A stretch of DNA of 46,280 bases, taken from positions 1 to 46,280 of the IMG/VR virus record IMGVR_UViG_3300027969_000156; one strand, given 5' to 3'. The DNA is from a virus. The number at the start of each line of letters is the position of its first letter. Position 1 is the first letter of the stretch. Positions 25,861 to 44,601 of the stretch are shown piece by piece. The translations under genes were made by a program, and so were the position numbers. The notes under the pieces were generated by a model. That model ran no database searches, was not told the DNA's origin, and saw nothing but the letters and a program-made list of their open reading frames with translations.

Positions 25861-26235
25861 TCAATTAGGTGCTTTCCTTGCAATCATTGCGTAACGTTTC
25901 TTTTTCTTCATATCAACAGCAGTAGCCGAAACAGGATCGGTACCACTTTGTGGACCAGTAACATTAGTTGGACCAGAAACAGCAATACCACCTACACCAT
26001 CTTCTTTGACTGGTACACAATTAGGTACTGTTGCACCATTCTTCTTTTTTGTGCCAACAGCAGTATAACCTGTCCAACAAGCTTTCTTTAAATCACCTGT
26101 TGGTTGTTTAACTTTTTCTTCAATCTCTGATTCTTTAACACATGAATTTTTTGAAAATGCCTTTTTACCAGGAACAGGTTTATATCCTGTCCAGCAACGA
26201 CCTTTTTCATCCAAAAACTGTTTAAATGATTTCAT
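25861..26235 (-). CDS. Capsid-targeted protein with paired CWTGY repeats, 124 aa
   Basis: Start MKSFKQFLDEKGRCWTGYKP at 26235 (TAATG overlap). The first ten residues resemble the T4 capsid-targeting leader. The body has two copies of a C-W-T-G-Y...C module (CWTGYKPVPGKKAFSKNSC and CWTGYTAVGTKKKNGATVP followed by NC), then a Thr/Gly/Pro-rich linker and a basic end. The paired cysteines could bind metal or form disulfides. Inferred to be packaged in the head; function unknown. Confidence 0.65.
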   Translation of the reverse strand: MKSFKQFLDEKGRCWTGYKPVPGKKAFSKNSCVKESEIEEKVKQPTGDLKKACWTGYTAVGTKKKNGATVPNCVPVKEDGVGGIAVSGPTNVTGPQSGTDPVSATAVDMKKKKRYAMIARKAPN

Positions 26236-26783
26236 TAGCAATTCCATTTTCTTAATGATTTGTTAATACGGCTATCTGGATCATTTGCTGTCTTAGCTGA
26301 TGTTAATCTTTTCTTCATACCAGACATTCTAGCACAAAATGATTTTCTACGATTAGCAGCTTTAGAACCAGGTTTTAATTTAGATGGTTTTGTTGTAACA
26401 GCCATTGATAATTTGGAACCAGGATTCTCCCTACGATAAGAAGCAATACCTTTACGATTCAAACCACCTTCTGGATCTTTACCGGCTTTTTTTTGCCAAG
26501 CGGCCGATTCACGCCAGAAATCATCTTTTTGCCAAATAGGTGCGTTCTTTGAATTCTTTTTTAGTACAGCACCTTCATTGAATTCTTTAATCCAATCATC
26601 AGGAGTTTTACCGTGTTTGGATTTAAAATCGTTGTGTAATTCTTCACCAGAAATATTATGGTCTTTACTAATGTCCATCATCAATTTATTAATTGTGTCG
26701 TAGCTATGGCTGTCTAATTTTTTTAGACCTTTTTCTAGTTTTTCGACATGGCCTTCGGCCATAAATTGTTTGAAGGTTTTCAT
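26235..26783 (-). CDS. Capsid-targeted basic protein, 182 aa (DUF6321-like)
   Basis: The N-terminus MKTFKQFMAEG closely matches the T4 internal-protein leader MKTYQEFIAEA, whose Glu-Ala bond is cut by the head protease. The C-terminal 90 residues are basic, with SYRRENPGSKLSMAVTTKPS and SGMKKRLTSAKTANDPDSRI. From memory this is DUF6321 in T4-like marine phages. It probably binds DNA in the head and may be injected. Confidence 0.7.
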   Translation of the reverse strand: MKTFKQFMAEGHVEKLEKGLKKLDSHSYDTINKLMMDISKDHNISGEELHNDFKSKHGKTPDDWIKEFNEGAVLKKNSKNAPIWQKDDFWRESAAWQKKAGKDPEGGLNRKGIASYRRENPGSKLSMAVTTKPSKLKPGSKAANRRKSFCARMSGMKKRLTSAKTANDPDSRINKSLRKWNC

Positions 26784-27166
26784 ACGTTTCTTAATATCTC
26801 TGCGACATTCATATCGACTGGTACATCAGCCGTCTTTATATTTTTACCATTAACACCCCATATTGCATCAGGCATTATGTTTAAGTATAGTAGAAAAGTT
26901 TTTAAAACATCATAATCTTTTTCATCTATCCTGTAAAATAATATTCTTGCGGTCACTTCTGGACCAAAAACATTATTTAACAGAATGATATGGTTTAATA
27001 TCAATCGTTCTTTGAGAATTTTAGTTGCCTTATATCTACGAAATAATCGCTTTAGATATTTGGTTCTTTTAATATCTCCTTCAAACTCCGACATAACATA
27101 ATTTGGTGCATTGTAGCACTTCATTGCGTATATCATAAAGTTATCTTCATTCAAATCATCAAGCAT
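26780..27166 (-). CDS. Conserved T4-like hypothetical protein, 128 aa
   Basis: Starts MLDDLNEDNFMIYAMKCYNA. Helical, with KYLKRLFRRYKATKILKERL near residue 35 and VFGPEVTARILFYRI. I recall close relatives in cyanophage genomes near structural genes. It begins straight after a strong terminator with no clear ribosome site; an internal ATG at 27136 may be the true start. Confidence 0.65.
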   Translation of the reverse strand: MLDDLNEDNFMIYAMKCYNAPNYVMSEFEGDIKRTKYLKRLFRRYKATKILKERLILNHIILLNNVFGPEVTARILFYRIDEKDYDVLKTFLLYLNIMPDAIWGVNGKNIKTADVPVDMNVAEILRNV

Positions 27167-27173
27167 AATTAAA

Positions 27174-27195
27174 ATGGGTACCCGTAGGTACCCAT
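27174..27195 (-). terminator. Strong intrinsic terminator
   Basis: A 9-bp perfect stem (ATGGGTACC with GGTACCCAT) closed by a 4-nt loop and followed by TTTTAATT on the minus strand, 11 nt past the stop of the 27206-27850 gene. Confidence 0.85.
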
Positions 27196-27205
27196 CCTTT
27201 TAAAA

Positions 27206-27850
27206 TTACAGACCGCCGTAAACAGCGTTAGAACTTGTATTACCTGATTGAATATTGGAAGCAATTGGATTTGCCAAGCAAACAATAGTTTCTTTTAAGA
27301 AACGAATTGTGCCGTCACTATTAATCTTACGAGTAATTTTATTCCAACCTTGATTTACACTTCCAAGTAATGTATTAGCAACAGTACTACCGTAACCATA
27401 TACAGTACCTTGAGTATTAGACATACGACTTCCTGTTACCAAGATTGTGTCGTTTGCATAGTTAGCATCGATAGGGTTGTTGTGTAGGATTGTATTAGCA
27501 AAGTAAACCAATCTACCAGAAGCAAAGTTACCAGTAACAATGTTATTCAAAATAACAGTATTGCCGGAAACAGAAGCTACGGTATTGTTTGCTCGCCAAA
27601 AAGCAATTTCATTTTGGTCAAAATTTGATGCATCTTTGGCAATTCTAGAAACATTACCAGTAACATCACCTTCGCCGTAGACATGACATCCTGGTTGAAC
27701 TGCACTAGCTACGTTTGCAGTAAACACCAGTACTTTTGAACCACCTAGAGTAACGTTGGCGGTTGTACCTGTCGCAACAGGCAATACTTCACGGGCCAAT
27801 GGCATATGTGGCCTATTGTTCGCAAAGTCTAAATTTCCCCATAAAGCCAT
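27206..27850 (-). CDS. Probable virion structural protein, 214 aa
   Basis: Starts MALWGNLDFANNRPHMPLAR behind AAAAGGAGAAAAAA and a late-type promoter, and is closed by the 27174 terminator, so it is a strong single-gene unit. The protein is Ala/Asn/Thr/Val-rich and beta-predicted, as in head or tail fibre/decoration proteins. MALWG starts recur in T4-like marine phage structural proteins from memory. Exact part unknown. Confidence 0.6.
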   Translation of the reverse strand: MALWGNLDFANNRPHMPLAREVLPVATGTTANVTLGGSKVLVFTANVASAVQPGCHVYGEGDVTGNVSRIAKDASNFDQNEIAFWRANNTVASVSGNTVILNNIVTGNFASGRLVYFANTILHNNPIDANYANDTILVTGSRMSNTQGTVYGYGSTVANTLLGSVNQGWNKITRKINSDGTIRFLKETIVCLANPIASNIQSGNTSSNAVYGGL

Positions 27851-27881
27851 TTTTTTCTCCTTTTAACCTCGGGTTATCTTA

Positions 27882-29426
27882 CTATTTATCGTTCTTATTA
27901 TCTTCTTTTTTGCCAGATTTCTTACTAATATCAGGCTGACCGGGACGATTTCTCATTATTGGATCAATTTCAATACTGTCCCTTTTAACACCAGTTAGGG
28001 TGGTACCACCACTTAATGTTGCTGCGGCTTGTGGTTTATTCTCCCCAAGACTGTCGTTTTTGTCTGTCTGGCTCATCTTAGGTTTTTTACCATAAGTGGC
28101 CACAGACTTATCTTCTTTTTCATGGTCATACATATCTTCTTTGACCACGCCTTTTCTCTTGTATAAAGCCTTAATCATACGAGCAGATTTGGACATTTGG
28201 CGTTTTCTGTCGGCCACTTCATTACCACCATTGGCACCATCAGCAGGAGTTTGTGTTGCTGCCTGTGTGTCTTGCCACATATCTTCAGATGTTGGTTTGT
28301 AACCAGACAAACGGTCTAAAGCACTATTCCAAGATTTGTTATGAGTTTTAATTCTTTTATTATGGTCTTTCTTACTCATACCTGGTTTTTTCTCAGGTAC
28401 GACTGGTTGTTGTTTTAACCAAGAAAATACTGTGGCTTTTTTGAGTTCATCGAGTTGTTCGAATTCTTCATTCTGTTTACCATAGTAGGCACCAAGAGCC
28501 ATCTTCTTACGCTCAGCTGTAGATTTGCCAGCAAATTTAGGATTTTTTGAATGAACAAAGTCGTGAATCCAATCACCAGCAGAAGCATTTTTACTTAAAA
28601 CTTCGTTAATCATTCCATCGAGTTCTTCTTCAGAAACTTCTTCTTTCATCTTCATTTCAGCTCTGCGTTTGCCAAAAGTTTTATGTACCAAAGTATCTAA
28701 TTTTGCATGAAATGCGTTAATTTTTTCTTGACTAACTTCTTCTTTATTCATGTGCTTTTCTAAGCGACTAATGGCATCTGACATACCATCGCTTTTTACA
28801 TCACGATGTGGTAGATTGGATGCAGAAGGTTCTTTGTGTAGTCTTTCTTGACGTTCTTTTTCGGTATTGTTATGCTTTATTTCTCTTGCTGCGGCTGCAG
28901 CACGGAATCTATCTAATGCGGAAGGTTTACTTGCTTCTAGTTGAACCTCTTCACCAGCAAAAAGTTTTTTAAAAAATCCTACTTTCTTTGGTTTAGGTTT
29001 AGTTCTAAGTGTAGGTTTTGGTGACGCCATACGAGTACCTACATTAAGAGAACCCACACGACCTTTTTTCACATGAGCTTGCATCATTGGAGATATATTG
29101 TCCATACTTACTTCATTTACTGTTTCTTCAGGTACCAATTCTGATGTCTGTACATCTTCTCGCCTTTGATTGCTCGTCTGCATTTTTTGTAGATGGTCTT
29201 GTTGCCATTTTAAAAACTGTGCGGATTTGGAATGAGCAATTTTTGTGGCAGTAGAAACAAATTTAGGATTAATACCTCTAGCGGAAAGATATTGATTTAA
29301 TGAAGCTGAGCTTTCAGAAACTTGGTACTTAGCAGAATACTGGCCAAGTTGACCAGGATCCACATTTTTTCCTTTTGCGGGTTCAGGATTTGTTTTGATT
29401 GCTTTAATGTCTTTAAATTTTTTCAT
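27882..29426 (-). CDS. Large low-complexity virion-associated protein, 514 aa
   Basis: Starts MKKFKDIKAIKTNPEPAKGK. Lys/Glu/Ser-rich, with repeated segments EEVSEEELDGMINEVLSKNA and EEFEQLDELKKATVFSWLK that I associate with T4-like marine phage head-region proteins. Several LxE or IxE sites suit head protease cleavage. The first 6 residues loosely match the capsid-targeting leader. Role unknown; may be an internal or scaffold protein. Confidence 0.55.
   Translation of the reverse strand: MKKFKDIKAIKTNPEPAKGKNVDPGQLGQYSAKYQVSESSASLNQYLSARGINPKFVSTATKIAHSKSAQFLKWQQDHLQKMQTSNQRREDVQTSELVPEETVNEVSMDNISPMMQAHVKKGRVGSLNVGTRMASPKPTLRTKPKPKKVGFFKKLFAGEEVQLEASKPSALDRFRAAAAAREIKHNNTEKERQERLHKEPSASNLPHRDVKSDGMSDAISRLEKHMNKEEVSQEKINAFHAKLDTLVHKTFGKRRAEMKMKEEVSEEELDGMINEVLSKNASAGDWIHDFVHSKNPKFAGKSTAERKKMALGAYYGKQNEEFEQLDELKKATVFSWLKQQPVVPEKKPGMSKKDHNKRIKTHNKSWNSALDRLSGYKPTSEDMWQDTQAATQTPADGANGGNEVADRKRQMSKSARMIKALYKRKGVVKEDMYDHEKEDKSVATYGKKPKMSQTDKNDSLGENKPQAAATLSGGTTLTGVKRDSIEIDPIMRNRPGQPDISKKSGKKEDNKNDK
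27883..27890 (-). promoter_or_regulatory. Late promoter-like GATAAATA
   Basis: The minus strand reads GATAAATA 33 nt before the structural gene start. T4 late promoters use TATAAATA. The same GATAAATA occurs at 33979. Confidence 0.55.
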
Positions 29427-29435
29427 ATGAATCTC

Positions 29436-30842
29436 TTAGTTAGAAATCTTACCCAACATTTCTTGCTTTAGTTTTGCAAATGATAATTTTGCTGCATTCT
29501 TAGCACGGCTCATTGGAGTGTGGACTGCACCAGACTTATCTGTAACATTACCTTTTTCATCAGCATTTTTGATTTTTTTGAAACCTGAAATACCAGCAAT
29601 CACTTTTTCATCAACCACTTCAACTTCTTCACTTGTAGTTTTTTTGTCTGATGAAAAATATTTTTGTGGTTTAGGATTGCCCAACTTGTCATCTGTTTTA
29701 ATGTCTATTGGACCAGGACTAGTTGTAACTTTTTGTTTTTCTTTTGTGTCAACGCCATTATCAAACTCTTTAGGTACGGCTTCAACACCACTAGTTGTCA
29801 AATCTACTTTGTAGTTTTTGAAAGAGTTTAATTTACCACCAGGCATACGGCCAGTTAACATATCTGTTGTAATCTTGTCGCCAGTTTTTGATGGTTGAGT
29901 TTGTACAGATTCTTTGATTTCTGGTTTACCACGGAGAAAACGACTAACTTGCGTTAATTGTCCTTTAAGAGTACCTGGTTTATGTTTCAAATATGCCTTG
30001 TCAGCAATATCTTGATTTTTTACTGGTGTTGCTTCTTCAATTGTTTCGTAAGCTTCATCATAAGCTTCTAATAAATCATTAATATCTTCATCCGACCAAT
30101 CAGCATCGGCTTCTTCTTTACGGAGTTTAGCAAGAATTGCGCCTGCAACTTTTTTACCTTTTTCTTCTGAACCATAACGCTTAGCTGCACCAGATGCAAT
30201 CTTAGCAAATGCTTTACCTGGTTTGCCAATGTCTTTACCTGCACGAGCAGCCTTAGCAGAGTAACCAGATGTTTCACCAATATTATTATCGGTAAAAGTT
30301 GGTTCTGTACCTTTTGATTTATCTTCTTGTAATTGTTTTGCAAAGTTATAAAAAATATTTTCTTTATGGTGCATTTTCTTTTCGTGGCCACCAACTTCTT
30401 TTTTAGCAATGCTTTTTGCTTCTGGCTTAGTAACGCAATCGCCATCTTTTTCAGCCTTATTCATCATTTTTTTGATTAGGGCTTTATCTTGCTTTTCATC
30501 TTCATGGCCTTCTTCTTTTTCAGATTCTTCGCTGACTTTTTTCTTAGCTCTAAGAATTTTAAAATCTTGGCCATCAATTTTGTTATTATGATTAGCATCA
30601 ATCTTATGTTGATTACCTTTCAAATCTTCTTTCATCTCTTTGTCTTTTGGACCCTTAACATCATCAACAGAGTGTTTAGTTTGGTCCGCACGAGCTTTTT
30701 TAGAATTGCCGTAACTAGAACCATAGACTTTCATGCCTGTAGGTGTAGGCACCTTTTCAGATGCTTCTTCTACTTTACCTTCGCTGATTACTGAATTAAC
30801 AGCATCAATCATGGATTGGCTTACTTTGTTTTTTGCGAACAT
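29436..30842 (-). CDS. Large basic virion-associated protein with EF-hand-like loop, 468 aa
   Basis: Start MFAKNKVSQSMIDAVNSVIS at 30842 behind GGAGCAATTT. It carries DANHNNKIDGQDF at about 94-106, matching a D-x-N-x-N-x-K-I-D-x-x-D calcium loop, and a KIASGAAKRYGSEEKGKKVA segment typical of this family in T4-like phages. Mostly Lys/Glu low complexity. ISEG near residue 22 could be a head protease site. Likely an internal head or core protein. Confidence 0.6.
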   Translation of the reverse strand: MFAKNKVSQSMIDAVNSVISEGKVEEASEKVPTPTGMKVYGSSYGNSKKARADQTKHSVDDVKGPKDKEMKEDLKGNQHKIDANHNNKIDGQDFKILRAKKKVSEESEKEEGHEDEKQDKALIKKMMNKAEKDGDCVTKPEAKSIAKKEVGGHEKKMHHKENIFYNFAKQLQEDKSKGTEPTFTDNNIGETSGYSAKAARAGKDIGKPGKAFAKIASGAAKRYGSEEKGKKVAGAILAKLRKEEADADWSDEDINDLLEAYDEAYETIEEATPVKNQDIADKAYLKHKPGTLKGQLTQVSRFLRGKPEIKESVQTQPSKTGDKITTDMLTGRMPGGKLNSFKNYKVDLTTSGVEAVPKEFDNGVDTKEKQKVTTSPGPIDIKTDDKLGNPKPQKYFSSDKKTTSEEVEVVDEKVIAGISGFKKIKNADEKGNVTDKSGAVHTPMSRAKNAAKLSFAKLKQEMLGKISN

Positions 30843-30843
30843 T

Positions 30844-32748
30844 TTAAATTGCTCCTTTTTTCTTTTTCTTTTTAATTTCAATGCCTATGTTTCGGCTTGG
30901 GTCTTTATATGTGTCCATACCTTCTTTATTATCGGATCCACCTAATGTACCACCAACGCCAGATGTTGGTGGAACATCAACATCATTTTGAAACCCGTTA
31001 TACTCTCTAAAAGTCAGTTTTTTCTTTTTCTTTTCAGCCAATGGATTTGGTTCTAATTTAGCACCAAGCATTGCTGTACCATTCTGACTTGCGTTACTAT
31101 ATTCTTCTGATTCGCTATATGTTTGATTGCCAAGTCCGGCACCTGCTGCGGCGCCTTGGCCAGCATCTCTACTATCGTATTCTGGACTTACTCCAGCCGG
31201 TCTTGCTACACGACCAGCACTTAAAGATGTATTACCACGTTTCTTTACTTTTTCTTTGTCGTTGTCTTTTTGGAAGTTGGTCTCTTTGGGTTCGGGGTTG
31301 ATTTTGAGCGTGGGCTGGTTTTCTTCGTAGGCACCGCTCCAACCGCCGCCTGTGACTGAACTTCCGATACCTGTGTTTTTTCTTGGACCTGTGTCACCTT
31401 GGACTTGGTCTCTTCCACCAACGAGGCTTCTGGAGTTGTCTGGTTTAATGTCTGCTGGTCCTTTTGCTCGGAGGAAAGGGTTGTATCTTCCGACTGTTTT
31501 TTGCTGAATAGATTTAGAATTGCCTTTAACATTACCTTCTCCAATTAACGAATTATTACCTGTATTTAGTTTATTGTTTCTGTTCATCCAATCAATGGAG
31601 ATTTCATTTAAAACGTTGTTATCCAAGAAGTTTTTGGTTTGGTTATAAACTTCGTGTATATCTTGTTCTTTACTTTCTAAGTTACCAGTATTATCAAAGG
31701 TTACCAAGTTATTATACAATTTTGTAAACTGTGTAATGTTTTCTTGTGACTTTTGCCACTTATCGTTGCGTACGGATTCTACCATCATACGAGATAATAA
31801 AGAGTTACGTTCTTGACTGGTTTCGTTGCTGGTACTAACAAAAATCATCATTGTTTCGTAACCAAGTTCTTCCAATTCTTCTTTAATATGTGAAATCTTC
31901 TCAAGGTCGTCAGCAGGTCCGTTAATGATTAATGGACCACGATTACGAACAGATTCATAACGAGGATTCATAGACTTGGTTGCCAGTTTATGTTTGTCAT
32001 TTAAAATATCACAAGCTTGCGTAAAATTAAACTCTACAATACGGCCTTCAGCAATAGCTTCACGAATAATGATATCTTTACCTGAACCTGGACCACCAGT
32101 TACAAAAATTGCTTTGAATAATCCACGGTCAACATCTTCGTGTAAACCCATGCCTTTACGAGTATCGTGCATGAGTTCTTTTGCGTGTTCGTGTGACACA
32201 TGAGAAGGAACACCTTTTTTGAAAGCGTGAATATCTTTTTTCTCGGCATGGCCACGCATCTTGGTACCAGACATACCAGTTGAACCTTCGGCATCAGGAT
32301 CCCGTTGGCCAGCAGAATGAACAGTAATTTTTTTGAAATTATACAAAGCACCTTTATGTGTGCCGTTATATTGTGCTAATTTCTTTTTATATTCTGGAAC
32401 ACGGTCAGAACCAGCAACCATGTGCAGGTGTGTTACACCTTTTTTGTGTAGTTCGGCGGCATGATGTAAGAATGTTGGATGTTCTTTGGAAGATGCAACA
32501 AAGTGTGTGTCTGGTGAATAACGATGCAGATGTTTAATTTTTTGTGCAGCAGATAATGGATTCTTACTTTTATCTTGACTGTGTGAAGTTACAACAGAAT
32601 GGCCAGCATTATGTTTATGCGCAATCTCTTTAACTTTATCAATCACTTTCATGTGACCAATTGTAGGAGGATTCATGCGACCAAACGCCATGACATGGTG
32701 TTTTTCACCTTGTTTAGTTTCTTCTACTAATTCCAAAAAACTTTTCAT
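30844..32748 (-). CDS. NadR-like adenylyltransferase plus P-loop kinase, 634 aa
   Basis: Three parts. Residues 1-10 (MKSFLELVEE) form a capsid-targeting-like leader. Residues 19-170 are a nucleotidyltransferase: GRMNPPTIGH at 23-32 (GRxxPxxxGH), AGSDRV at 112-117, and SGTKMR at 160-165. From 215, FVTGGPGSGKD (Walker A 218-225) begins a kinase domain. This is the order of NadR (NMN adenylyltransferase then nicotinamide riboside kinase), but the kinase fold is not proven to be specific. Residues about 400-634 are low complexity. The first part is rich in histidine. Confidence 0.72.
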   Translation of the reverse strand: MKSFLELVEETKQGEKHHVMAFGRMNPPTIGHMKVIDKVKEIAHKHNAGHSVVTSHSQDKSKNPLSAAQKIKHLHRYSPDTHFVASSKEHPTFLHHAAELHKKGVTHLHMVAGSDRVPEYKKKLAQYNGTHKGALYNFKKITVHSAGQRDPDAEGSTGMSGTKMRGHAEKKDIHAFKKGVPSHVSHEHAKELMHDTRKGMGLHEDVDRGLFKAIFVTGGPGSGKDIIIREAIAEGRIVEFNFTQACDILNDKHKLATKSMNPRYESVRNRGPLIINGPADDLEKISHIKEELEELGYETMMIFVSTSNETSQERNSLLSRMMVESVRNDKWQKSQENITQFTKLYNNLVTFDNTGNLESKEQDIHEVYNQTKNFLDNNVLNEISIDWMNRNNKLNTGNNSLIGEGNVKGNSKSIQQKTVGRYNPFLRAKGPADIKPDNSRSLVGGRDQVQGDTGPRKNTGIGSSVTGGGWSGAYEENQPTLKINPEPKETNFQKDNDKEKVKKRGNTSLSAGRVARPAGVSPEYDSRDAGQGAAAGAGLGNQTYSESEEYSNASQNGTAMLGAKLEPNPLAEKKKKKLTFREYNGFQNDVDVPPTSGVGGTLGGSDNKEGMDTYKDPSRNIGIEIKKKKKKGAI

Positions 32749-33935
32749 TTACGAACTTTTAATAAATTTTGTTTAGCAAACTCAGCACGGTTAACCAATT
32801 TGGTTGGTTGATTATCATGGTGAACTACAAAACCTTCAGGTTTAGACTTCTTACCAGCGATATGATGTTGGTAGTGTCCTTCATGTGTTTCTAGGGATTT
32901 AACCAAAGCATTTTTGGCTTGATGTAAATGATGATGCATCGAAAACAGATTTCCATAATGTTCTTTATGTTTCTCAACATGAGCAATTTGTTTCTTGCCT
33001 TCACCAGTTTTTTCAGCCTTAGACTTTTCAGTTGAAACTTTAGCAGCCAGTTTTTCATGAGCGTTATGTAAATGTTCTTTGAAACCTTTAACACTTGGAA
33101 CCTCATCATGTCTTACTGTCTTGTTTATGTATGTAGCAAGGTGGCCGTGTTCTCCACTATGCTTTGGATGAACAGCATCATACATCTTGTGGCCATGAGT
33201 ATCATGAATATCTTTGGCAGCCGCCATGTGTTTTTGGAAGTGTTTTTCATTCTCAGCGGAATGTTTTACTTTACTTGTATCGTGTTCAGCACCATGAATA
33301 TGGACATCTGGATGCTCTTTGAATTTACTTGTATCAACATGAGGCGAAGCGTGTTTCATGTCATCACTATACTGGTGGTGAACTACAACACCAACTTTAG
33401 ATTTTTTAATCTTTTCTGCTTCTTTACCTTTGGCAGTATAGGTGATTGTGTTTGGAGTAAAAGAAACATCACCTTTGGCTTCTGCAATATAACCTTCATG
33501 CAAGGTCTTAGTGTCGGCATGGTGCATCAAATCACCTTGGAATACACCAGTTTTAGGTGTTACTTTTGGTAGGTGTTTGAGAGCGTGTTTAAGAGTATGT
33601 GCTAAACCTGGAGCATGACCGTGATTCTTGTCAATGTCTTTTTCTGTGTGATTAATCTTAGGATTCTTATTGAAGGCAGATTTGGTTGCCACAAAGAATT
33701 TACCATTCTTAGGATGATGACCAAATACAATCGATGGAGAACCATCATATTTCATTGTTAAATTGGTATTTTTGTGACCGCCAGTCATATGAGCATGAGC
33801 TTTCATTAAAGCTGCATGAGCGTGTTCAAAACCTGCATGACCGTGCATCAATGGCCTATCTTCGGCATGGTGAATATGTTTTAATTCACCACCTTCGCTG
33901 GCTTCTTCTTTTAAGAATGATAAAAACGATTGCAT
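32745..33935 (-). CDS. Histidine-rich protein with ligase-like nucleotidyltransferase motifs, 396 aa
   Basis: Starts MQSFLSFLKEEASEGG, a capsid-targeting-like leader. Motif I-like KYDGS is at 62-66, then GKFFVATKSAFNKNP, motif III-like GVFQGDL at 130-136, VGVVVHH at 181-187, motif IV-like EGFVVHHD at 367-374 and KLVNR at 379-383. This spacing fits the KxDG ligase/nucleotidyltransferase fold; I recall a DUF6267 family. 56 of 396 residues are histidine by my count. Coupled to the NadR-like gene (ATGA). Confidence 0.65.
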   Translation of the reverse strand: MQSFLSFLKEEASEGGELKHIHHAEDRPLMHGHAGFEHAHAALMKAHAHMTGGHKNTNLTMKYDGSPSIVFGHHPKNGKFFVATKSAFNKNPKINHTEKDIDKNHGHAPGLAHTLKHALKHLPKVTPKTGVFQGDLMHHADTKTLHEGYIAEAKGDVSFTPNTITYTAKGKEAEKIKKSKVGVVVHHQYSDDMKHASPHVDTSKFKEHPDVHIHGAEHDTSKVKHSAENEKHFQKHMAAAKDIHDTHGHKMYDAVHPKHSGEHGHLATYINKTVRHDEVPSVKGFKEHLHNAHEKLAAKVSTEKSKAEKTGEGKKQIAHVEKHKEHYGNLFSMHHHLHQAKNALVKSLETHEGHYQHHIAGKKSKPEGFVVHHDNQPTKLVNRAEFAKQNLLKVRK

Positions 33936-33978: not shown

Positions 33979-33986
33979 TATTTATC
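33979..33986 (-). promoter_or_regulatory. Late promoter-like GATAAATA
   Basis: The minus strand reads GATAAATA 44 nt before the ligase-like start, between the big stem-loop that ends the glycan cassette and the head block. Matches the 27883 element exactly. Confidence 0.55.
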
Positions 33987-34057: not shown

Positions 34058-35248
34058 TTATAGGTCCTGGATGTTCAGGAATACATCATTTGTATTGTTT
34101 CGGACTGATAAAATTCTTTGTTTGATTTCTTTGAAGAAATTCCAAGCCAAAGGAATAAATAATACTTTATCATCCTCAGTATATGTACCAAGAATTTCAG
34201 AACCAACAATCTCAATGGATGAACCAGGTGTAAACAGACCTTGTTTCAATTTATTGTCATCAATAATAATATCAAGTGGTATTCTGGCAAAGTTTAAGAA
34301 TGTGTTTCCTTTTGCTGGGGCTCCATAACCAACAATCTTATAACCTTGGTTACGCCAGTAATCAACTCTCTCGGCAAAATTGGCAACCTTTTCAATACAA
34401 TTTGATGTATATTTTGTATATGTGAAATCGGTGTACAATCCAGCAGCAGTTTCCATATCAACTAAGTTCTTAATTGTATTTGGTGCAGACCTATCAGCAC
34501 TAATAATAAAGATATAACTTGTTCCGTGAATTGGGGTTTTTACTACATCAATTAAATTCAGCCCAGCACGATTACACAACAACATCATCGATTTAATATT
34601 GTAGTATGAAATGTGTTCATGGTAGATTGTATCAAACTCATTATTCAAAATCATATCTGCTTGCGATGTTTGAATGAACAACAACCCACCAATCTCTAAA
34701 TTGCTTTTACAGTTTTTTAATAACTCCAAAGGATTTGGATTGTGTGCAAAAGCATTTTGTATTGTAATAATATCATGACTGCGGTCATACTTGTCATCAA
34801 AATAACCACAAGTTACTTTATGATTTTTTGAAGAAGTTTCATATAAATTCTCAGCTGGGTCAACACCGTAAGTATCAACATTAAGAGCTTTAAATTTATC
34901 TAACTGAGAACCATCATTACAACCAATATCTAATACTGAAGATGGTGCATGGCCAAGTTTTTCAATACAGAAATTGGCATACCAATCCATGTAATCAACA
35001 TAAGTTTTTGTTGTACCACTTACATATAAATAATTTTTATAAATTAAATCGGGATTAACAATATGTGTCAGTTGAACATGGTGGCAATTTTGACATACCT
35101 TAATCGCCAATGGAAAAGATTCCTCGGGAGCATCTTTACTGTCTTTGTAAGAATTGGCGAGGGGTTGGTTATTTAAATCTAAGACCATCTTCAAATCATC
35201 ATGGTCACACGCCAAACATTTTTTAATTTCTTGTAAGTTCTCTATCAT
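34058..35248 (-). CDS. Sugar C-methyltransferase, zinc-binding N-terminus
   Basis: A 396-residue three-domain methyltransferase. C11-x2-C14 and C52-x2-C55 (VCQNCHHVQL) are zinc ligands, LDIGCNDG at 106-113 binds AdoMet, and GYGAPAKGNTFLN near 308 begins a C-terminal domain. This order is typical of NDP-sugar C-methyltransferases. It likely makes a branched deoxysugar from the RmlB-like product. Confidence 0.85.
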   Translation of the reverse strand: MIENLQEIKKCLACDHDDLKMVLDLNNQPLANSYKDSKDAPEESFPLAIKVCQNCHHVQLTHIVNPDLIYKNYLYVSGTTKTYVDYMDWYANFCIEKLGHAPSSVLDIGCNDGSQLDKFKALNVDTYGVDPAENLYETSSKNHKVTCGYFDDKYDRSHDIITIQNAFAHNPNPLELLKNCKSNLEIGGLLFIQTSQADMILNNEFDTIYHEHISYYNIKSMMLLCNRAGLNLIDVVKTPIHGTSYIFIISADRSAPNTIKNLVDMETAAGLYTDFTYTKYTSNCIEKVANFAERVDYWRNQGYKIVGYGAPAKGNTFLNFARIPLDIIIDDNKLKQGLFTPGSSIEIVGSEILGTYTEDDKVLFIPLAWNFFKEIKQRILSVRNNTNDVFLNIQDL

Positions 35249-36011
35249 AATATTTTCTCATATATGTTTCAGAATATAAACCAGGATTTGGTGAACAAAG
35301 TCTTGGTGGTGGACTATCTATATTGAATATTTTTTTAGCTTTAGATAGTGGCCAAAATTCAGCAATCATTCTGTCTAAATGGTAAGGTTGTTTATTCTCT
35401 TTCCACCATTGTGAATCTTCAATGTCATCCAATGTTCTCATGTAGTCACTTCTCAACCACCAGAAGTTACCACTATAATGTAGGAATGGGTCGTGATTTA
35501 AATTGATACCCGCAGTTTCATATCGTTCTAAAGCTTCAACACAGGTTTTCCATCGTTCAATAAAACCATACTCTAGATATTTTCTCCAGTAGTAATAGTT
35601 TTTAAACTTGGCAACGTCACCAACTTTAAAGGCATTATTAAATGCTGTAACACCCTTGCCATGAAAATACAATCCATAAAAATCTTGTGTTTGTGCATCT
35701 AACCACATTCTTTTAATTGTTGGAATTTCAAATACAAATTTCTTTTGTTCTTGGCCTTTGGCACTAGAGAAGTCCTTTAATTCTTCACCAGTTACATCAT
35801 TATGAATCTCATGTATCTCAATCTTAGGATACAAAGCACAAAGTTCTTTGAATAATTTAATCTGTTCTTGATTGCCTAATGCTGTGTAACTAAGAACTTC
35901 CATTTCATCATACAAACCAAAATCTTCTAGTTGTTTCATTTGGTCCATAAAGATATAAACCCATGAACCATCATCGGTTAGATAGTGGTGGTTGTATAAT
36001 CTAATTTTCAT
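35223..36011 (-). CDS. Glycosyltransferase-like protein
   Basis: A 262-residue protein with GLYFHGKGV near 129 and HYSGNFWWLRSDYM near 180, features of phage and bacterial glycosyltransferase-like proteins of the DUF-type clusters. No DxD is obvious, so this is tentative. Overlaps the methyltransferase gene by 26 nt. Confidence 0.55.
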   Translation of the reverse strand: MKIRLYNHHYLTDDGSWVYIFMDQMKQLEDFGLYDEMEVLSYTALGNQEQIKLFKELCALYPKIEIHEIHNDVTGEELKDFSSAKGQEQKKFVFEIPTIKRMWLDAQTQDFYGLYFHGKGVTAFNNAFKVGDVAKFKNYYYWRKYLEYGFIERWKTCVEALERYETAGINLNHDPFLHYSGNFWWLRSDYMRTLDDIEDSQWWKENKQPYHLDRMIAEFWPLSKAKKIFNIDSPPPRLCSPNPGLYSETYMRKYYDRELTRN

Positions 36012-36793
36012 TGTCTACCTTCATAAAAATTCTTATAATTGTGTGCAATATAGAAACCTTTTTCTTTAATACTATTTAAATCAGTATTTGGATCCTCGGG
36101 ATGAATATTGTGCAAACGAGGATTAATTGAATAAGGTTTACCTGCAACAAAGAATAACATCTGTAAGAAGTAATCATTCCAACCAAACTGGTGTTGATTG
36201 GGATGAAACCTATCAAAATTTACAGATAGAAAATCCATATACTTGTAAAAGTTTTCAATGAATGTTGCAGTTTTCATAATTGTACCGGCACCAGCGCCAT
36301 AATATGGGTGATTAGGCCTTACACCAGAAACTTTTTCAATCTCATCTTGTATTTCTTCGTTGATGTAACTAAACGCATTATGCCCAACAAATACACCATC
36401 AACATAACGGGTATCATACGAAGCAATTTCCCACGATTCATCAAATTCAATTTTATCTAAGCAGATAACATCATCTTCACAAAACATAAAGTGTGTAGTG
36501 CCCATAGCAATTGCAGCCATCATGATGCGCTTCATGAATTCATAAATCTGAAACTTATTGTATCCCCAATGTTGAGAAGGATAACCAAGACTAGAAACAT
36601 TCTGTAAATAGATTGCATTATGCTTTTTACATATGTCATATTGGTCTACGCTACCGCCATCAACAGATACAAAATATGGAATGTCTGGATGAAATTTACG
36701 GAATGAAGCAATCGAGGCATCAAGCCCCGATTTGTTATTCTTATTCCAATGAAATATTCCTAGTGAAGCCAACGTTTGTTCTCCAATGTCCAA
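36008..36793 (-). CDS. Glycosyltransferase-like protein
   Basis: A 261-residue protein with PYFVSVDGGSVDQYD near 35-49, CEDDVICLDKI near 105 (an acidic metal-binding motif) and PYYGAGAGTIMK near 164. Fits a GT-A fold transferring a sugar from a nucleotide donor. The donor and acceptor are unknown. Overlaps the RmlB-like gene by 34 nt. Confidence 0.65.
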   Translation of the reverse strand: MDIGEQTLASLGIFHWNKNNKSGLDASIASFRKFHPDIPYFVSVDGGSVDQYDICKKHNAIYLQNVSSLGYPSQHWGYNKFQIYEFMKRIMMAAIAMGTTHFMFCEDDVICLDKIEFDESWEIASYDTRYVDGVFVGHNAFSYINEEIQDEIEKVSGVRPNHPYYGAGAGTIMKTATFIENFYKYMDFLSVNFDRFHPNQHQFGWNDYFLQMLFFVAGKPYSINPRLHNIHPEDPNTDLNSIKEKGFYIAHNYKNFYEGRQ

Positions 36794-37797
36794 AGCGTCA
36801 TTTCTTTAATACGTTCACTCAATTTAATCTTTGGTTCCCAACCAAGTGACTTTAATAATCCGCCATCGAGTGCATATCGTAAATCGTGGCCAGGTCTACT
36901 GCCGTGGAAGTCAACCATTTCATAATTAAGTTCTTTACTTTGTGCTTCAGCAATCATCTTAGCCAAAGACAAGTTATCAATTTCTTCTGTACCAACAAGA
37001 TTGAATTTAGGACAATGAGCCCATCCATAATCACCAGTATGTTTATAATCTTTAGGCAAATTATTAAGAATGAACATTAGACCTTCTGCCACATCTTTAG
37101 CATGAATGTACATACGAGTGCCCGCCTCAGTACAATCAGCATTGGCATGAATGTATACTTTCTCGCCATCACGAGCACGCTGAATACACATTGGAATAAA
37201 CTTCTCAGGATGTTGGCGTTCACCAAACACATTCATTGTGTGTGTTACAACAATAGGCATCTTGTAAGTGTTCTCATAGGCAACACAGAATTCTTCTGCT
37301 GCAGCCTTACTTGCTGAATATGGGTTTGTTGAGTTGTATCGGTCATATTCTTTGTATGCCACACCAGGAGGTGCCACACCAAAAATTTCATCAGTTGAGA
37401 AATACACAAATCGTTCTAAGTTAGGTAAATGCTTACGAGCATAGTCTAACATATTAACTGTACCAACAGTATTATCTTGTACAAACTCTAGTGGATATTC
37501 AATGCTTCGGTCCACATGACTGCCTGCTGCCAAATGTAAAACAATGTCAATTGGACCAATGTCTTTGACAATCATTTCATTTAGTTCTGCTTTGAGGTCG
37601 TGGAACACAATACGCAAACGGGAAGAAACAATTTTTGGGTCATGGTCTTGTAACATATCATGTAAACGATTTAAGTTTCCAGAAATGTCCAAACGATCCA
37701 GACAAGTAATATTCCAATCTGTTTCTTTAAGCATCTTGTCAATAACATGATGTGCAATAAAACCGGCACCGCCAGTAATCAATACATTTTTACTCAT
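36760..37797 (-). CDS. dTDP-glucose 4,6-dehydratase-like (RmlB family)
   Basis: A 345-residue extended SDR. GGAGFIA at 9-15 binds NAD, STDEIFG at about 130 gives the catalytic Thr/Asp/Glu trio, and YSASK near 157 the catalytic Tyr/Lys. SRPGHDLRYALDGG is a classic RmlB C-terminal segment. It makes a 4-keto-6-deoxy sugar. Start at 37797 with GGAG. Confidence 0.88.
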   Translation of the reverse strand: MSKNVLITGGAGFIAHHVIDKMLKETDWNITCLDRLDISGNLNRLHDMLQDHDPKIVSSRLRIVFHDLKAELNEMIVKDIGPIDIVLHLAAGSHVDRSIEYPLEFVQDNTVGTVNMLDYARKHLPNLERFVYFSTDEIFGVAPPGVAYKEYDRYNSTNPYSASKAAAEEFCVAYENTYKMPIVVTHTMNVFGERQHPEKFIPMCIQRARDGEKVYIHANADCTEAGTRMYIHAKDVAEGLMFILNNLPKDYKHTGDYGWAHCPKFNLVGTEEIDNLSLAKMIAEAQSKELNYEMVDFHGSRPGHDLRYALDGGLLKSLGWEPKIKLSERIKEMTLWTLENKRWLH

Positions 37798-37799
37798 TT

Positions 37800-38507
37800 T
37801 CAACTCCAAGTAGTACCTTCAAAATCTAACCAATATGTAATAAGTTTGCCTCTACCATTTAGGTAGTGCATTGGGAAAGAATGAACCAATGCTCGACTGG
37901 AATAGAAGTATAACATAACCTTAGGTCCGTTGTCAAGCGAACCTGCCAAGTGGGATGTAGCGGTATCACCACCAACAAAGATTTCTGCCTCTTGAATGTG
38001 GTTTAGATTGGTATCATAATCTGTGGATATTTGCCAGTCATCAATTGGTCTGAGTGCTATATTTGGAGCAACACATACCACTTTTTCATAATCTTTATAT
38101 TGTTCTTCACCAAATTTGCCAATAATGCTTTGTAGTGTGGACTCTGGCCAATTACGATATTGATTATATGGCGCATCGAGGACTGGACACACAACAATTT
38201 TTTTCTTTTGTTCTTTGTCATTTTTAATAATAACATTGTCACCAGAAATATCACGGAAATCAAATATATTTACTTTTCTCCATGGCAAAGATTGTTCACC
38301 TGGAGTTTCTGAAAAGTAGTCAGTATGTTTCAAAAGGAAATTATACATCTTACCACAATAATCGGCCGAATTAATGGAATCTTGTTTCATGTGAAACTTA
38401 ATTGCTGGATTCTGTTTGCGCATATGTGCAACCACATTGGCAATTGCAATTAAATCACCACTTCTAGCAGGACCACCAAACACTCCTGTTTCGATATTAA
38501 AAATCAT
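37800..38507 (-). CDS. Glycosyltransferase family 9-like
   Basis: A 235-residue protein with KIVVCPVLDAPYNQYRNWP and FVGGDTATSHLAGSLDNGPK near residue 180, matching the GT9 (heptosyltransferase-like) signature. It is shorter than usual because only the donor-binding side is obvious. Confidence 0.65.
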   Translation of the reverse strand: MIFNIETGVFGGPARSGDLIAIANVVAHMRKQNPAIKFHMKQDSINSADYCGKMYNFLLKHTDYFSETPGEQSLPWRKVNIFDFRDISGDNVIIKNDKEQKKKIVVCPVLDAPYNQYRNWPESTLQSIIGKFGEEQYKDYEKVVCVAPNIALRPIDDWQISTDYDTNLNHIQEAEIFVGGDTATSHLAGSLDNGPKVMLYFYSSRALVHSFPMHYLNGRGKLITYWLDFEGTTWS

Positions 38508-38995
38508 TTCTTTTCTCCTACAATCATAAACGAATCGTTCATGTCACGGTCCGAATGGAAAACATTAATGTAACCACGGTCAATCATGTAATCTCTAATA
38601 CTTTCAGCCGAGAACATATGCATATGCTTTCTGTTATTGAATGGTCTCCAATATTCTTGGTTATAGTGTGGTAGATATAAAAACAATACGCCACCTGGTT
38701 TTAGATTTGATGTCCAATAATCCAAAGCAGTAACCCAATCAGGAAGATGTTCTAAACAATGACTAGAATAAACATAATCCAAATCTTTATATTCAAAATT
38801 GTATGCTGTATTACCATCATTGAAATTTAAATCAACGCCAATGGCACCAGGGAAACACCAGTCTTGACGATTACAACCAACATCTATCCCATAACCTTTA
38901 CAAAAATGTTTGGCAAATGGAATAGCAAATTGTGATGCGTTGCCTTCGGCTTGAAAGTGTGGGTAATCTCTACCCTTGTATGTTAAAATATTCAT
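38504..38995 (-). CDS. SAM-dependent methyltransferase
   Basis: A 163-residue class I methyltransferase: GYGIDVGCNRQDW is motif I and GAIGVDLNFND motif II, followed by YVYSSHCLEHLPDW and LKPGGVLFLYLPHY. The HCLEHL motif is typical of the Methyltransf_11 group. Substrate probably a sugar intermediate; unproven. Confidence 0.8.
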   Translation of the reverse strand: MNILTYKGRDYPHFQAEGNASQFAIPFAKHFCKGYGIDVGCNRQDWCFPGAIGVDLNFNDGNTAYNFEYKDLDYVYSSHCLEHLPDWVTALDYWTSNLKPGGVLFLYLPHYNQEYWRPFNNRKHMHMFSAESIRDYMIDRGYINVFHSDRDMNDSFMIVGEKK

Positions 38996-39669
38996 AGATT
39001 AAAATTATATTCGTGCATCTTGTTGGTCAAATGCACGTCATCTACTTCAGAATAGTGCATGGGTTCATCGTGTGGAATGTTTAGAAAATCATGATATAAA
39101 GGATATTCATCACAAGTTTCATCTATCAATCCTTTTTCTAATACTAATTGATACCATGTAGGTTCAACTGAGTAGTTTGTTGCTGGACTAATTCTATGTA
39201 TTTGGTCCATCTGAAAGGTCTCTCTTAAAAAACTAACATCAGAAAAGAAACATAATGTTCCTAAATCGGTGTTGTTTCTACAAGTAACCAATCTTTTATT
39301 TTTTGATTTACTACGATTAATAATTTCATGTACATCAAGATTAGGACTCAAATCAAATGTCATCTTAAAAACATTTTTGAAACCATATTTTTGTACAAAG
39401 TCATTGGCTGTGTGCATTAGAATTAATTCTGCAACAGCATGGTTTGGTCTTGTTGGTTGGCCATCAATTTGCCATGGATTATTCTTATCATAAAGATAGG
39501 CATCACAATAACTTTGAGTTTCTTCATCTAAAATTGAATGAGTTGTCATGCAAACATAATGACCTTTTTCTTTTAAACTTTTTACCAAAGTCTTGGCCAT
39601 CTTCCTTTTTTCTTCAGGATTCTGGCCATCACAATAGGCAGTTACTACAACTGCTGTATCTTCATTCAT
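38992..39669 (-). CDS. Glycosyltransferase-like protein
   Basis: A 225-residue protein with VVVTAYCDGQNPEEKRKMAK at the start and VFKMTFDLSPNLDVHEII near 117. The first strand then acidic motif suggests a nucleotide-sugar GT-A fold. Tentative; it follows the GT9-like gene upstream by a 4-nt overlap. Confidence 0.55.
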   Translation of the reverse strand: MNEDTAVVVTAYCDGQNPEEKRKMAKTLVKSLKEKGHYVCMTTHSILDEETQSYCDAYLYDKNNPWQIDGQPTRPNHAVAELILMHTANDFVQKYGFKNVFKMTFDLSPNLDVHEIINRSKSKNKRLVTCRNNTDLGTLCFFSDVSFLRETFQMDQIHRISPATNYSVEPTWYQLVLEKGLIDETCDEYPLYHDFLNIPHDEPMHYSEVDDVHLTNKMHEYNFNL

Positions 39670-40409
39670 AGTAAGGCCTCCAAATCTTTTGCATGAACTA
39701 ATTTGCCTTTACGGTTTAAGTAGAAATGTTTCTCAAATACTTTATCAATATTTTTGTTTTCATCCCAAAGAACATCATCACCAACTCGCCACTCAGGTTT
39801 CCAATCTTCTGCTTTCCATACACAGTATAAAGGAACATTACACAGGTCGGCAAGCATTCCGACACCAGTTAAATTGGTAATAAATGGTTTCTTTAAATTC
39901 TTAATGATGTAGGCATTTTCCAACATTGGTCTATTAAAATCAATAAACTCATATTGTGTGAGGTGTGATAGAATATGGGTTTCTCTACGAGCATCAATAT
40001 CACCTACCGCCCAACGGTCACCAACATAGTAGGTATCTTTTACTTCAATATCAAACTCTGGTGTCTTTACAATAAAGTCATCGTCAACTTCAAAATCAAC
40101 ACCATACTTGTCATTCATCCAGTTTTCATAACGGCAAGTTTCGATTGGCCGATTAGGATCTTTTTTATCTTCACGAATTGGCCATGAACTTAATTGAATC
40201 ACTTCACCATACATGAATACTTCGTCATCGAATTCCACACTAGAGAACAAGTCTTGGTACATCAAGAATTCTTTGATGCCGTTAAACTTACGCATTGGTG
40301 ATTTGATAATTAAATCATACTTACCAAATTTTTTACTAAGACCTGATAATACAGGCATACCATTTAAAAAGTCGCCAAGATTGGCTGTGCCGACAAGATA
40401 TAATTTCAT
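39666..40409 (-). CDS. Glycosyltransferase family 9-like
   Basis: A 247-residue protein starting MKLYLVGTANLGDFLNGMPV, the GDxL-type first loop of heptosyltransferase-like enzymes. FITNLTGVGMLADLCNVPLY resembles the donor-site motif. Part of the glycan cassette. Confidence 0.65.
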   Translation of the reverse strand: MKLYLVGTANLGDFLNGMPVLSGLSKKFGKYDLIIKSPMRKFNGIKEFLMYQDLFSSVEFDDEVFMYGEVIQLSSWPIREDKKDPNRPIETCRYENWMNDKYGVDFEVDDDFIVKTPEFDIEVKDTYYVGDRWAVGDIDARRETHILSHLTQYEFIDFNRPMLENAYIIKNLKKPFITNLTGVGMLADLCNVPLYCVWKAEDWKPEWRVGDDVLWDENKNIDKVFEKHFYLNRKGKLVHAKDLEALL

Positions 40410-41230
40410 TTTACAGTATCATTAAAGTTATTAAACAAAACAAATGAATCGTGACCTAATTGATGGTCAGGAATAATATTCAGATTAAACATTTCTGGTT
40501 TCTTTAATGAAGCCATTAACCATAATGTTTGGTCATCATCAATTAAATTCTTTGATAACAATTCATCCATACTCTCTACAATTAATCGATTTACTTCTGG
40601 CCACAAATCTTTATGCCCAACTTGTTTTGCGCCAAGAATGTAAACAATATTATTAAAGATTACATCTTCAATTGGTTGACCTTTTAAAAATGGTCTGTAA
40701 CCAAATAATTGTAATTTGTCTTTACCAAAGTCATAAGACCATTTCTTACTCGGAGGAATCTTGTCAGGTGTTCTACAATATCCAAAATCAATCTGAGCAA
40801 CATAATCATTGGTAATTAAATTGTTGTCCAAAGCCCACTTAATAAAGAATGACTTGAGGTACATTAACTGAATGTAATCCGGATTCCAATATTCTGGATT
40901 TAGTCTTTGTGAAGGATTAACTCTACTGGCATATGATTCCATTCTTTGAATATCATAGTACTTTTTCTTTTGTTCTGCAAATTGACCATGATAGTCAAAC
41001 GGAATAACTTTAGTTTTATCTTCTTTACCTTTTCGTAAGGCCATCACACGGTCAACAAACTCAGGTGATGTGTAGATAATCATTTCGTTATCTAATTGTG
41101 CCATGTAACCAAAGCGTTCAAAATAAGTGTCTACTGTGCGGTGTAAGTAATGTGGAAAACCTTTATCAGGTGTCCAATCACCACGACCAGTATCAAAAAA
41201 GAATGTTACAATACTTACGTCATTATTCAT
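40406..41230 (-). CDS. HtrL/WlaTC-type glycosyltransferase
   Basis: A 274-residue protein. SIVTFFFDTGRGDW at 6-19 and FIKWALDNNLITNDYVAQID with FGYCR around 145 match the HtrL_YibB/WlaTC family. These proteins are thought to be glycosyltransferases for surface glycan. Role here inferred from context. Confidence 0.75.
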   Translation of the reverse strand: MNNDVSIVTFFFDTGRGDWTPDKGFPHYLHRTVDTYFERFGYMAQLDNEMIIYTSPEFVDRVMALRKGKEDKTKVIPFDYHGQFAEQKKKYYDIQRMESYASRVNPSQRLNPEYWNPDYIQLMYLKSFFIKWALDNNLITNDYVAQIDFGYCRTPDKIPPSKKWSYDFGKDKLQLFGYRPFLKGQPIEDVIFNNIVYILGAKQVGHKDLWPEVNRLIVESMDELLSKNLIDDDQTLWLMASLKKPEMFNLNIIPDHQLGHDSFVLFNNFNDTVK

Positions 41231-41706
41231 AGTTTTATCAATTCAGGTGAATGTTGTGGCTGTTCTACACGGGGTTGTTCTTCATTTTTTTTCTTCTCCA
41301 ATTCATAAACACGCTTTCTTAATTCTGAAGAACTGTATGTGTGTTGGCGTTTATGATAGTGTATTTCAATATCATTATCTAAACAATATTGTTTACCAGT
41401 AAAGTCACGGTTAAGATATTCTTCACTTAAAAAACGAATGTGCATTGTTTGAGTTTGAATTAGATTTAATAAATCAGCTTCGGTACTGTATACCAAAATT
41501 TCATCAACATACTTACAACCTTGTAGTTGTACATATCGTTCATATACTGATTGTGATGGTTTATTTTTGACGCCTGGTCGGTCAATGGTGGGGTCTACTT
41601 GAAGTGCAACAATGAGATAATCACAAAGTTGTTTTTCCATCTTCAACATGGTAACATGGCCAGCATGAAGAAGGTCGAATGACGAACAATTAAATCCAAT
41701 TTTCAT
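41227..41706 (-). CDS. Cytidylyltransferase (TagD/RfaE type)
   Basis: A 159-residue nucleotidyltransferase: GFNCSSFDLLHAGH at 4-17 with intact HAGH, and YSSSELRKRV near 124-133 as the second motif. It likely activates a sugar- or alcohol-phosphate with CTP for the cassette. This contrasts with the degraded copy at 16252. Confidence 0.8.
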   Translation of the reverse strand: MKIGFNCSSFDLLHAGHVTMLKMEKQLCDYLIVALQVDPTIDRPGVKNKPSQSVYERYVQLQGCKYVDEILVYSTEADLLNLIQTQTMHIRFLSEEYLNRDFTGKQYCLDNDIEIHYHKRQHTYSSSELRKRVYELEKKKNEEQPRVEQPQHSPELIKL

Positions 41707-42482: not shown

Positions 42483-43072
42483 TTTATCCAATACCAAACA
42501 TCATTATTAGTACCTAAAATAACTTTATTCATTTTTGCTGCAAATTCTTCTACTGCTTGTTTTACGGCAGGAATGGCATCAAAATCGTGGCCAGCAAACA
42601 CACCACCTTTTTTAACTTTTGAATAATAGTTCTCACAATCCCACAACACTTGTTCATAAGTATGTAGACCATCAATAAAAATTAAATCAAATTGGTCATC
42701 TTCAAAATTAACTAAAGCGTCATTCGATATTTGACGGTACTGTTTAAATCGTTCACCATACTTTGCAAACCGTGACAGTACACCTTGATACATTGATTCT
42801 CTGTTTGTAACCTGTGAACCATTCCAATCTTGAAAATCGGTATACGGGTCAACACAATGAATTGTTAATTCGGGATTTGATTCTAATAAAAACTGTGTTG
42901 TTTCTCCCGAATCACAACCAATTTCTAAAACAACTGGCGAATTCATATTGGCAACCATTTCACCTAATCCACGACCTGAAGGTTCAATTGGAGGACTATA
43001 AACGGCGGTACTTGGATTCACTGCACCAAAAGATCCGGTATCAGTTTGATAAACGAAAGTAAAATCCTGCAT
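42479..43072 (-). CDS. SAM-dependent methyltransferase (Methyltransf_24 type)
   Basis: Start MQDFTFVYQTDTGSFGAVNP at 43072 after ACAGGAC; the frame stays open further upstream. VVLEIGCDSGETTQFLL is motif I, HCVDPYTD motif II and FDLIFIDGLHTYEQVLWD the metal/acid motif typical of this group. 197 residues. Probably an O-methyltransferase for the sugar. Confidence 0.82.
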   Translation of the reverse strand: MQDFTFVYQTDTGSFGAVNPSTAVYSPPIEPSGRGLGEMVANMNSPVVLEIGCDSGETTQFLLESNPELTIHCVDPYTDFQDWNGSQVTNRESMYQGVLSRFAKYGERFKQYRQISNDALVNFEDDQFDLIFIDGLHTYEQVLWDCENYYSKVKKGGVFAGHDFDAIPAVKQAVEEFAAKMNKVILGTNNDVWYWIK

Positions 43073-43073
43073 A

Positions 43074-44599: not shown

Positions 44600-44601
44600 A
44601 A

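Follow-up and report, generated by a model that had tools for sequence, protein, structure and literature searches.

Four genes on the minus strand of a fragment of an aquatic T4-like phage encode proteins whose first ten residues are, in all likelihood, T4-type capsid-targeting sequences on proteins packaged into the phage head. The window, i.e. the whole stretch of DNA analysed, is IMG/VR virus record IMGVR_UViG_3300027969_000156 (46,280 bases), a fragment without head genes. The first-pass annotation had read the leaders as an apparent address tag on four unrelated proteins, two of them enzyme-like, that would be carried in the head and injected with the DNA if the resemblance is functional. 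This interpretation is partly supported. The resemblance of the leaders and the predictions are well supported, and for the window phage itself we infer docking, cleavage and injection, as well as the presence of the four proteins in its head.

Late in infection, the leaders would dock the proteins on the prohead scaffold core, mainly via the hydrophobic residues 4 and 7. A gp21-type protease would then clip the chain behind a Glu (residue 9 or 10), and the clipped bodies, lying loose in the head, would leave it together with the DNA when the next host is infected. The leader would be a movable address, placed by the phage lineage on unrelated bodies. In the window the cargo would comprise four proteins with presumptive roles: the DUF6267 enzyme, which has ligase-like motifs, a protein that combines cytidylyltransferase/NMNAT and kinase parts, and a pair of small basic proteins.

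Four leaders in one block of genes

The leaders and the bodies behind them are positioned in the window as follows.

33906..33935, minus strand: leader MQSFLSFLKE of the DUF6267 protein; putative cut after E10 (L-K-E, then E)
32745..33905, minus strand: DUF6267 body, 386 residues after the leader, basic, with ligase-like motifs (Pfam)
32719..32748, minus strand: leader MKSFLELVEE of the cytidylyltransferase-like protein; next residue T
30844..32718, minus strand: cytidylyltransferase-like body (Pfam and PHROG)
26754..26783, minus strand: leader MKTFKQFMAE of the DUF6321 protein; next residue G
26235..26753, minus strand: DUF6321 body, a variable middle and the DUF6321 domain, pI 10.0 (Pfam DUF6321, 6e-19)
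26206..26235, minus strand: leader MKSFKQFLDE of the small basic CWTGY-module protein; next residue K
25861..26205, minus strand: CWTGY-module body, repeated C-W-x-G-Y, pI 9.8 (sequence)

The genes start at 33935, 32748, 26783 and 26235, with the N-termini originally assigned to them. The ORF of the last one opens 12 nt further up, at 26247, and its homologues begin at the internal ATG at 26235. The leaders had been called near-identical, which is too strong: they are alike, but only 4-7 of 10 residues are identical in pairwise comparison. The T4 leader that had been given for comparison, MKTYQEFIAE-A, is correct, as ipII and ipIII in NC_000866 read so, and the window leaders share 3-6 of 10 residues with it. 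The four bodies are mutually unrelated in Pfam and PHROG profile searches. The pattern common to the four leaders is MxxFxx[FL]xxE, with M1, F4, [FL]7, [LMV]8 and E10. The leader at 32748 is the weakest of the four, having L rather than F or Y at position 7.

A leader rule, M..[FLY]..[FLY][ILVMF].E, was scored over the 63 gene starts of the window. It was matched four times, compared to 0.046 matches expected from shuffled N-termini, and none of 20,000 shuffles reached four; a stricter rule derived from the window leaders themselves gives an expectation of 0.0003. No further gene among the 63 starts conforms to the rule. Two large relatives (404 and 261 ORFs) have convincing matches in the equivalent block only. 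At the DNA level, no match of the block to phage records was found.

Fit to the T4 capsid-targeting rule

Mutagenesis of the T4 IPIII leader assigned targeting to residues 4 and 7 and processing to residues 8 and 10; residues 1-10 are sufficient, and L/I-x-E is the motif behind which gp21 cleaves (PMC9026906). The window leaders agree with this rule at the experimentally important positions (4, 7, 8 and 10). Phe occupies position 4 in all four, and position 7 is either F or L. A strict L/I-x-E at positions 8-10 is present in two of the four, at 26235 (L-D-E) and 33935 (L-K-E). The other two sites are non-strict: the 26783 leader reads M-A-E and the 32748 leader V-E-E, or L-V-E one residue earlier.

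The same positions stand out in the families. F4 and E10 do not change among 17 aligned DUF6267 proteins, in which positions 2, 3, 5, 6 and 9 vary; 51 of 60 unique DUF6267 N-termini conform to the full leader rule. The DUF6321 family carries 1.9-2.1 bits of information at positions 4 and 10 and 0.5-0.8 after position 10. Its leader is conserved, and an identical leader precedes tails that are very different in length and content. The four window bodies are basic (pI 9.4-10.0, net charge +13 to +18), which is weak evidence as other proteins of the block are basic too.

The incomplete set of strict sites bears on a second reading, in which the leader docks proteins on the prohead core and is left uncut in some of them, so that these remain bound to the core or shell as structural components and are not injected. 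A T4 variant with Asp at position 10 still targets, its processing being lost, and some leaders matched in IMG/VR have D as residue 10, or E at position 9 but not 10. Targeting alone, however, would not demand E10, and in several families this residue ranks with the most conserved ones of the leader. Docking without cutting is a possible but rather unlikely account, and cleavage by a gp21-type protease is preferred.

Among known systems, T4 IPI, IPII and IPIII (Mullaney and Black 1996; reviewed in PMC9026906) are similar in having a ten-residue N-terminal leader with an aromatic residue at 4, hydrophobic residues at 7 and 8 and Glu at 10, in the conserved leader being attached to divergent basic bodies, and in the gp21-type protease, here encoded in close relatives. 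Unlike the T4 proteins, the window leaders have Phe for Tyr at position 4, the cargo includes enzymes, and the leader genes lie in one block beside primase and RNR genes; cleavage and ejection are putative for the window. T4 Alt, a head-packaged ADP-ribosyltransferase, likewise has an enzyme body preceded by a short N-terminal propeptide, but this propeptide is seven residues long and of another sequence, and the chemistry of Alt is unrelated. The packaging signal of P1 DarB (PMC9024508) is also N-terminal and sufficient to bring a reporter into the phage head, but it is up to 30 residues long, the Dar proteins have no common consensus, and no sequence similarity is claimed.

T4 gene 61.1 (NC_000866 18966-19130; 54 residues) begins with MKTFKEFIKE-D, a full leader by the rule. 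Its product is possibly an unlisted T4 internal protein.

The leader on other proteins

IMG/VR was searched with MKTFKQF and MKSFKEF as DNA patterns, each of which gave at least 120 loci. Among the matches listed there are at least 223 tagged proteins in at least 113 body families, and Glu is at position 10 in 58-60% of these tagged proteins compared to 11% of background ORFs. The permuted control MKQFKTF gave 27 loci. Several of them are genuine leaders, the control having kept the F4/F7 spacing, and a register-shifted control, MKFTKQF, was therefore added; it gave 11 loci. The permuted control is at least 4-fold and the register-shifted control at least 11-fold rarer than the leader patterns. 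The shuffles, together with the permuted and shifted controls, rule out chance as an explanation of the leaders.

The likeness of the leaders might also stem from common ancestry of the genes, as adjacent genes can arise by duplication, or from a preference in translation starts (A-rich first codons), MK starts being common in AT-rich phages; no address tag would then be involved. Common ancestry does not agree with the bodies being unrelated. Conservation that peaks at positions 4, 7, 8 and 10, instead of declining evenly, and a pattern that extends to residue 10, past the usual start-codon effects, argue against a start preference, and the far rarer permuted and shifted controls of the same composition contradict it. 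Either origin is hardly credible. With at least 113 body families among the matches listed and four unrelated bodies in the window, the leader does behave as the swappable address tag that had been proposed.

Pfam searches with 50 representative tagged bodies found SAM lyase, ADP-ribosyltransferase, methyltransferase, lytic transglycosylase, glucosaminidase, cytidylyltransferase and DUF6321. One match (L226), an HK97-type capsid protein, is probably unrelated and was rejected as a leader protein. Another locus (L234) has four genes within 14 kb that all start with MKTFKQFIxE; one of the bodies looks ADP-ribosyltransferase-like (YRG...WFS).

Leader proteins in the virions of cyanophages

Proteins identified by published mass spectrometry in purified cyanophage particles were mapped onto the phage genomes. 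In S-CREM2 (PMC10665884) all five annotated leader proteins, ORF6, ORF13, ORF14, ORF136 and ORF154, were detected in the virion. They include a SAM hydrolase (ORF6), a kinase (ORF14) and a cytidylyltransferase (ORF154, MKNFSSFLTE-A). With a sixth leader match counted, an internal start unused in the annotation, five of six leader ORFs were detected compared to 45 of 210 others (Fisher P=0.003). In S-SCSM1 (PMC9602691) the NMNAT ORF91, with the leader MKSFLQFLKE-A, was detected and ORF30, which also has a leader, was not; ORFs 89, 90, 92, 93, 95 and 97 of the block are virion proteins as well. The GenBank notes mark 48 virion proteins for this phage, compared to 45 stated in the paper. The S-SZBM1 cytidylyltransferase ORF140, which has a nine-residue leader (MRFRQFIIE-A), was detected, and the leader proteins ORF191 and ORF192 were not (PMC9146016). 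The three undetected leader proteins (S-SZBM1 ORF191 and ORF192, S-SCSM1 ORF30) are all small.

The cytidylyltransferase T4-GC190 of S-SM1, which was detected in the virion (PMC3037559), carries the leader MKKFSAFLNE-A. The same paper reports the S-PM2 cytidylyltransferase as undetected in the virion; this protein is leaderless and fused behind a leaderless DUF6267 (L480 3986-5761). By these reports the enzyme was detected in 4 of 4 cyanophages where it has the leader and in 0 of 1 where it does not.

In the pooled lists of S-CREM2, S-SCSM1 and S-SZBM1, 7 of the 10 proteins with a leader appear as detected, compared to a background of 17% (P = 3e-4), the ten being partly hand-curated: the nine-residue variant was admitted and one gene dropped by the ORF filter was added. 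In a mechanical test of the published lists of S-SCSM1 or S-SZBM1 alone, no significant association between leader and detection was found. Overall, the leader tracks published virion detection in these relatives, in line with the proposed carriage in the head.

Leaderless DUF6267 was not detected in the virions of S-SZBM1 (ORF141), S-CREM2 and S-SCSM1. Two leaderless DUF6321 proteins, S-SCSM1 ORF29 and S-CREM2 ORF137, are listed in virions, so the leader is not the sole route into the particle. Leaderless DUF6321 proteins are mostly on short contigs.

The authors of the S-CREM2 and S-SCSM1 proteomes themselves name lysate carry-over as possible (PMC10665884, PMC9602691). In a rival reading the cytidylyltransferases are in the preparations for that reason, and the motif is unrelated to the virion, being a helix that docks on another complex of phage or host. 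Carry-over would not select by N-terminus, but detection follows the leader and not the enzyme, and in S-CREM2 five different leader proteins were detected and the leaderless DUF6267 was not, according to the published lists. Furthermore, the motif fits the T4 rule at the tested positions, which argues against another docking helix. This explanation is improbable, and targeting to the head is retained as the preferred one.

Leader-like motifs were also seen elsewhere in virion-detected proteins. S-CREM2 ORF12 (OR473000 7704-10313, L172), whose annotation is that of a Cas9-type nuclease, contains PLRFASFMAE-A at about residue 26, away from the annotated start. The 69-residue S-SCSM1 ORF93 (MK867354 91626-91835, L180) has a leader-like motif, KRTFKEFLEYIE, at its C-terminus.

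The DUF6267 protein

The match to DUF6267 (PF19782) is strong (E=1e-92, 311.9 bits compared to a cut-off of 27). An AF2 model has a pLDDT of 84, with values below 50 at residues 1-18; two other short stretches are low. The low confidence of residues 1-18 in the model fits a detachable leader. Three motifs of the body are reminiscent of covalent nucleotidyltransferases, and the protein is accordingly described as ligase-like.

33741..33752, minus strand: K62-Y-D64-G65; K62, D64 and G65 invariant in alignment A1
33531..33539, minus strand: Q133-G-D135; invariant, possible motif III equivalent
32832..32840, minus strand: P366-E367-G368 (PEGFVV); E367 and G368 invariant, possible motif IV equivalent

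The motifs were assigned by eye, K62-Y-D64-G65 resembling motif I (KxDG) of covalent nucleotidyltransferases and ligases. A fold search of the PDB gave no significant match, several ligases being among the weak hits (E about 1-3), and a profile search found no ligase. Neither the fold nor the profile search significantly identifies DUF6267 as a known ligase. No mention of DUF6267 was found in the literature searched.

The other three leader-bearing proteins

The protein at 32748 consists of a cytidylyltransferase/NMNAT-like domain (residues ~15-205), a P-loop kinase-like domain (~205-390) and a basic tail. It matches the phrog_3041 cytidyltransferase (1e-64) and Pfam CTP_transf_like (PF01467; 5e-5, above the cut-off); a Zeta_toxin match is weak. 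When [LI]xE sites were counted as a sign of degradation with the scaffold, they were modestly enriched in this protein only among the four. Homologues in which position 7 is F have been reported as virion proteins. The cytidylyltransferases/NMNATs of cyanomyoviruses (S-SM1 T4-GC190, S-SCSM1 ORF91, S-CREM2 ORF154 and S-SZBM1_140) share with it the enzyme family, the leader and the position in the block, except that in S-CREM2 the order is somewhat different. Unlike these virion-detected homologues, the window protein has in addition the P-loop kinase-like domain and the long basic tail. The available passages of the source papers make no mention of a leader on these enzymes. DUF6267 and the cytidylyltransferase, one fused leaderless protein in S-PM2, are adjacent separate genes in the window, each with a leader.

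Relatives of the DUF6321 protein without a clear leader are virion proteins in S-SCSM1 (PMC9602691) and S-CREM2 (PMC10665884). The C-W-x-G-Y modules of the fourth protein recur in S-SZBM1 ORF139 and S-CREM2 ORF160, both reported as virion-detected.

Genomic context and the gp21-type protease

In the window the DUF6267 block is followed by endolysin, primase, ribonucleotide reductase, exonuclease and peptidase genes. This order resembles the one in HTVC008M and Melnitz of the Kyanoviridae, whose block is flanked by the gp41 helicase on one side and the primase/RNR genes on the other. In HTVC008M the block is present and a strict leader was not found in it; in Melnitz (MZ577097), which can be cultured, DUF6267 has a leader-like start. 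Upstream of the block, 34058-46034 of the window holds a series of methyltransferase, sugar-epimerase and glycosyltransferase-like genes.

Since the window is without head genes, the protease was sought in relatives. Four of them (G001, G002, G004 and G006), with DUF6267 proteins about 89-92% identical to that of the window, encode Peptidase_S77 (gp21, PF03420) beside gp22 and gp23. Their gp23 has L-N-E near residue 50, with T or I as the next residue, roughly where maturation cleavage occurs in T4. The leader does occur where a gp21-type protease is encoded, as these four close relatives show. PF03420 was found in 22 of 47 leader contigs compared to 0 of 12 control contigs, which is only indicative because many contigs are fragments and the controls are mostly shorter. 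Two close relatives (L466 2915-3136 and L468 2915-3136) have a small leader-like gene, MKTLKEFYTLCE..., in the head cluster upstream of gp21.

Three neighbours in the window block do not have the short leader.

27206..27850, minus strand: leaderless M[AS]L[WY]G-type protein, placed in the block like S-SCSM1 ORF95 and S-SZBM1 ORF136, both reported as virion-detected
26780..27166, minus strand: DUF7207 protein without leader (Pfam)
29436..30842, minus strand: protein beginning MFAKNKVSQSMIDAVNSVISE-G...; 21-residue stretch ending in I-S-E (sequence)

The likeness of the first to S-SCSM1 ORF95 and S-SZBM1 ORF136 consists of N-terminal resemblance and synteny only and is below the blastp threshold. 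Equivalents of the DUF7207 protein are not among the detected virion proteins of S-SZBM1, S-SCSM1 and S-CREM2. The third may possibly have a longer propeptide, of 21 residues, by analogy with T4 ipI; a relative has a similar start and I-I-G-E near residue 21.

About 50 nt upstream of the DUF6267 gene, GATAAATA at 33979-33986 (minus strand) resembles the T4 late promoter TATAAATA. A single GATAAATA match is too weak to be used as evidence of a late promoter.

Implications

The mechanism is known from T4, and the T4 leader has already been proposed as an evolutionary device for loading varied proteins (PMC9026906). What is new is the phage clade, the cargo, the wide cargo survey, the controls and the agreement with independent proteomes. 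Of 15 open-access papers naming capsid targeting sequences, a single one also names cyanophages, and it is a T4 review.

It is conceivable, and put forward tentatively, that one short head-address tag carries dozens of unrelated host-takeover proteins in aquatic T4-like phages and is gained and lost gene by gene. In the window, the ligase-like DUF6267 and the NMNAT/kinase protein, joined in S-PM2, would have been split and each tagged, so that a pair of RNA- or NAD-directed enzymes may reach the host with the DNA.

Enzymes such as NMNAT, a SAM hydrolase and a kinase have been described in cyanophage virions by papers that cannot tell cargo from contamination. By following detection, the leader rule provides an answer to this question. 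With the rule, injected proteins can also be predicted for uncultured phages from their sequences, and the proteins that marine and freshwater T4-like phages would inject at time zero become directly testable.
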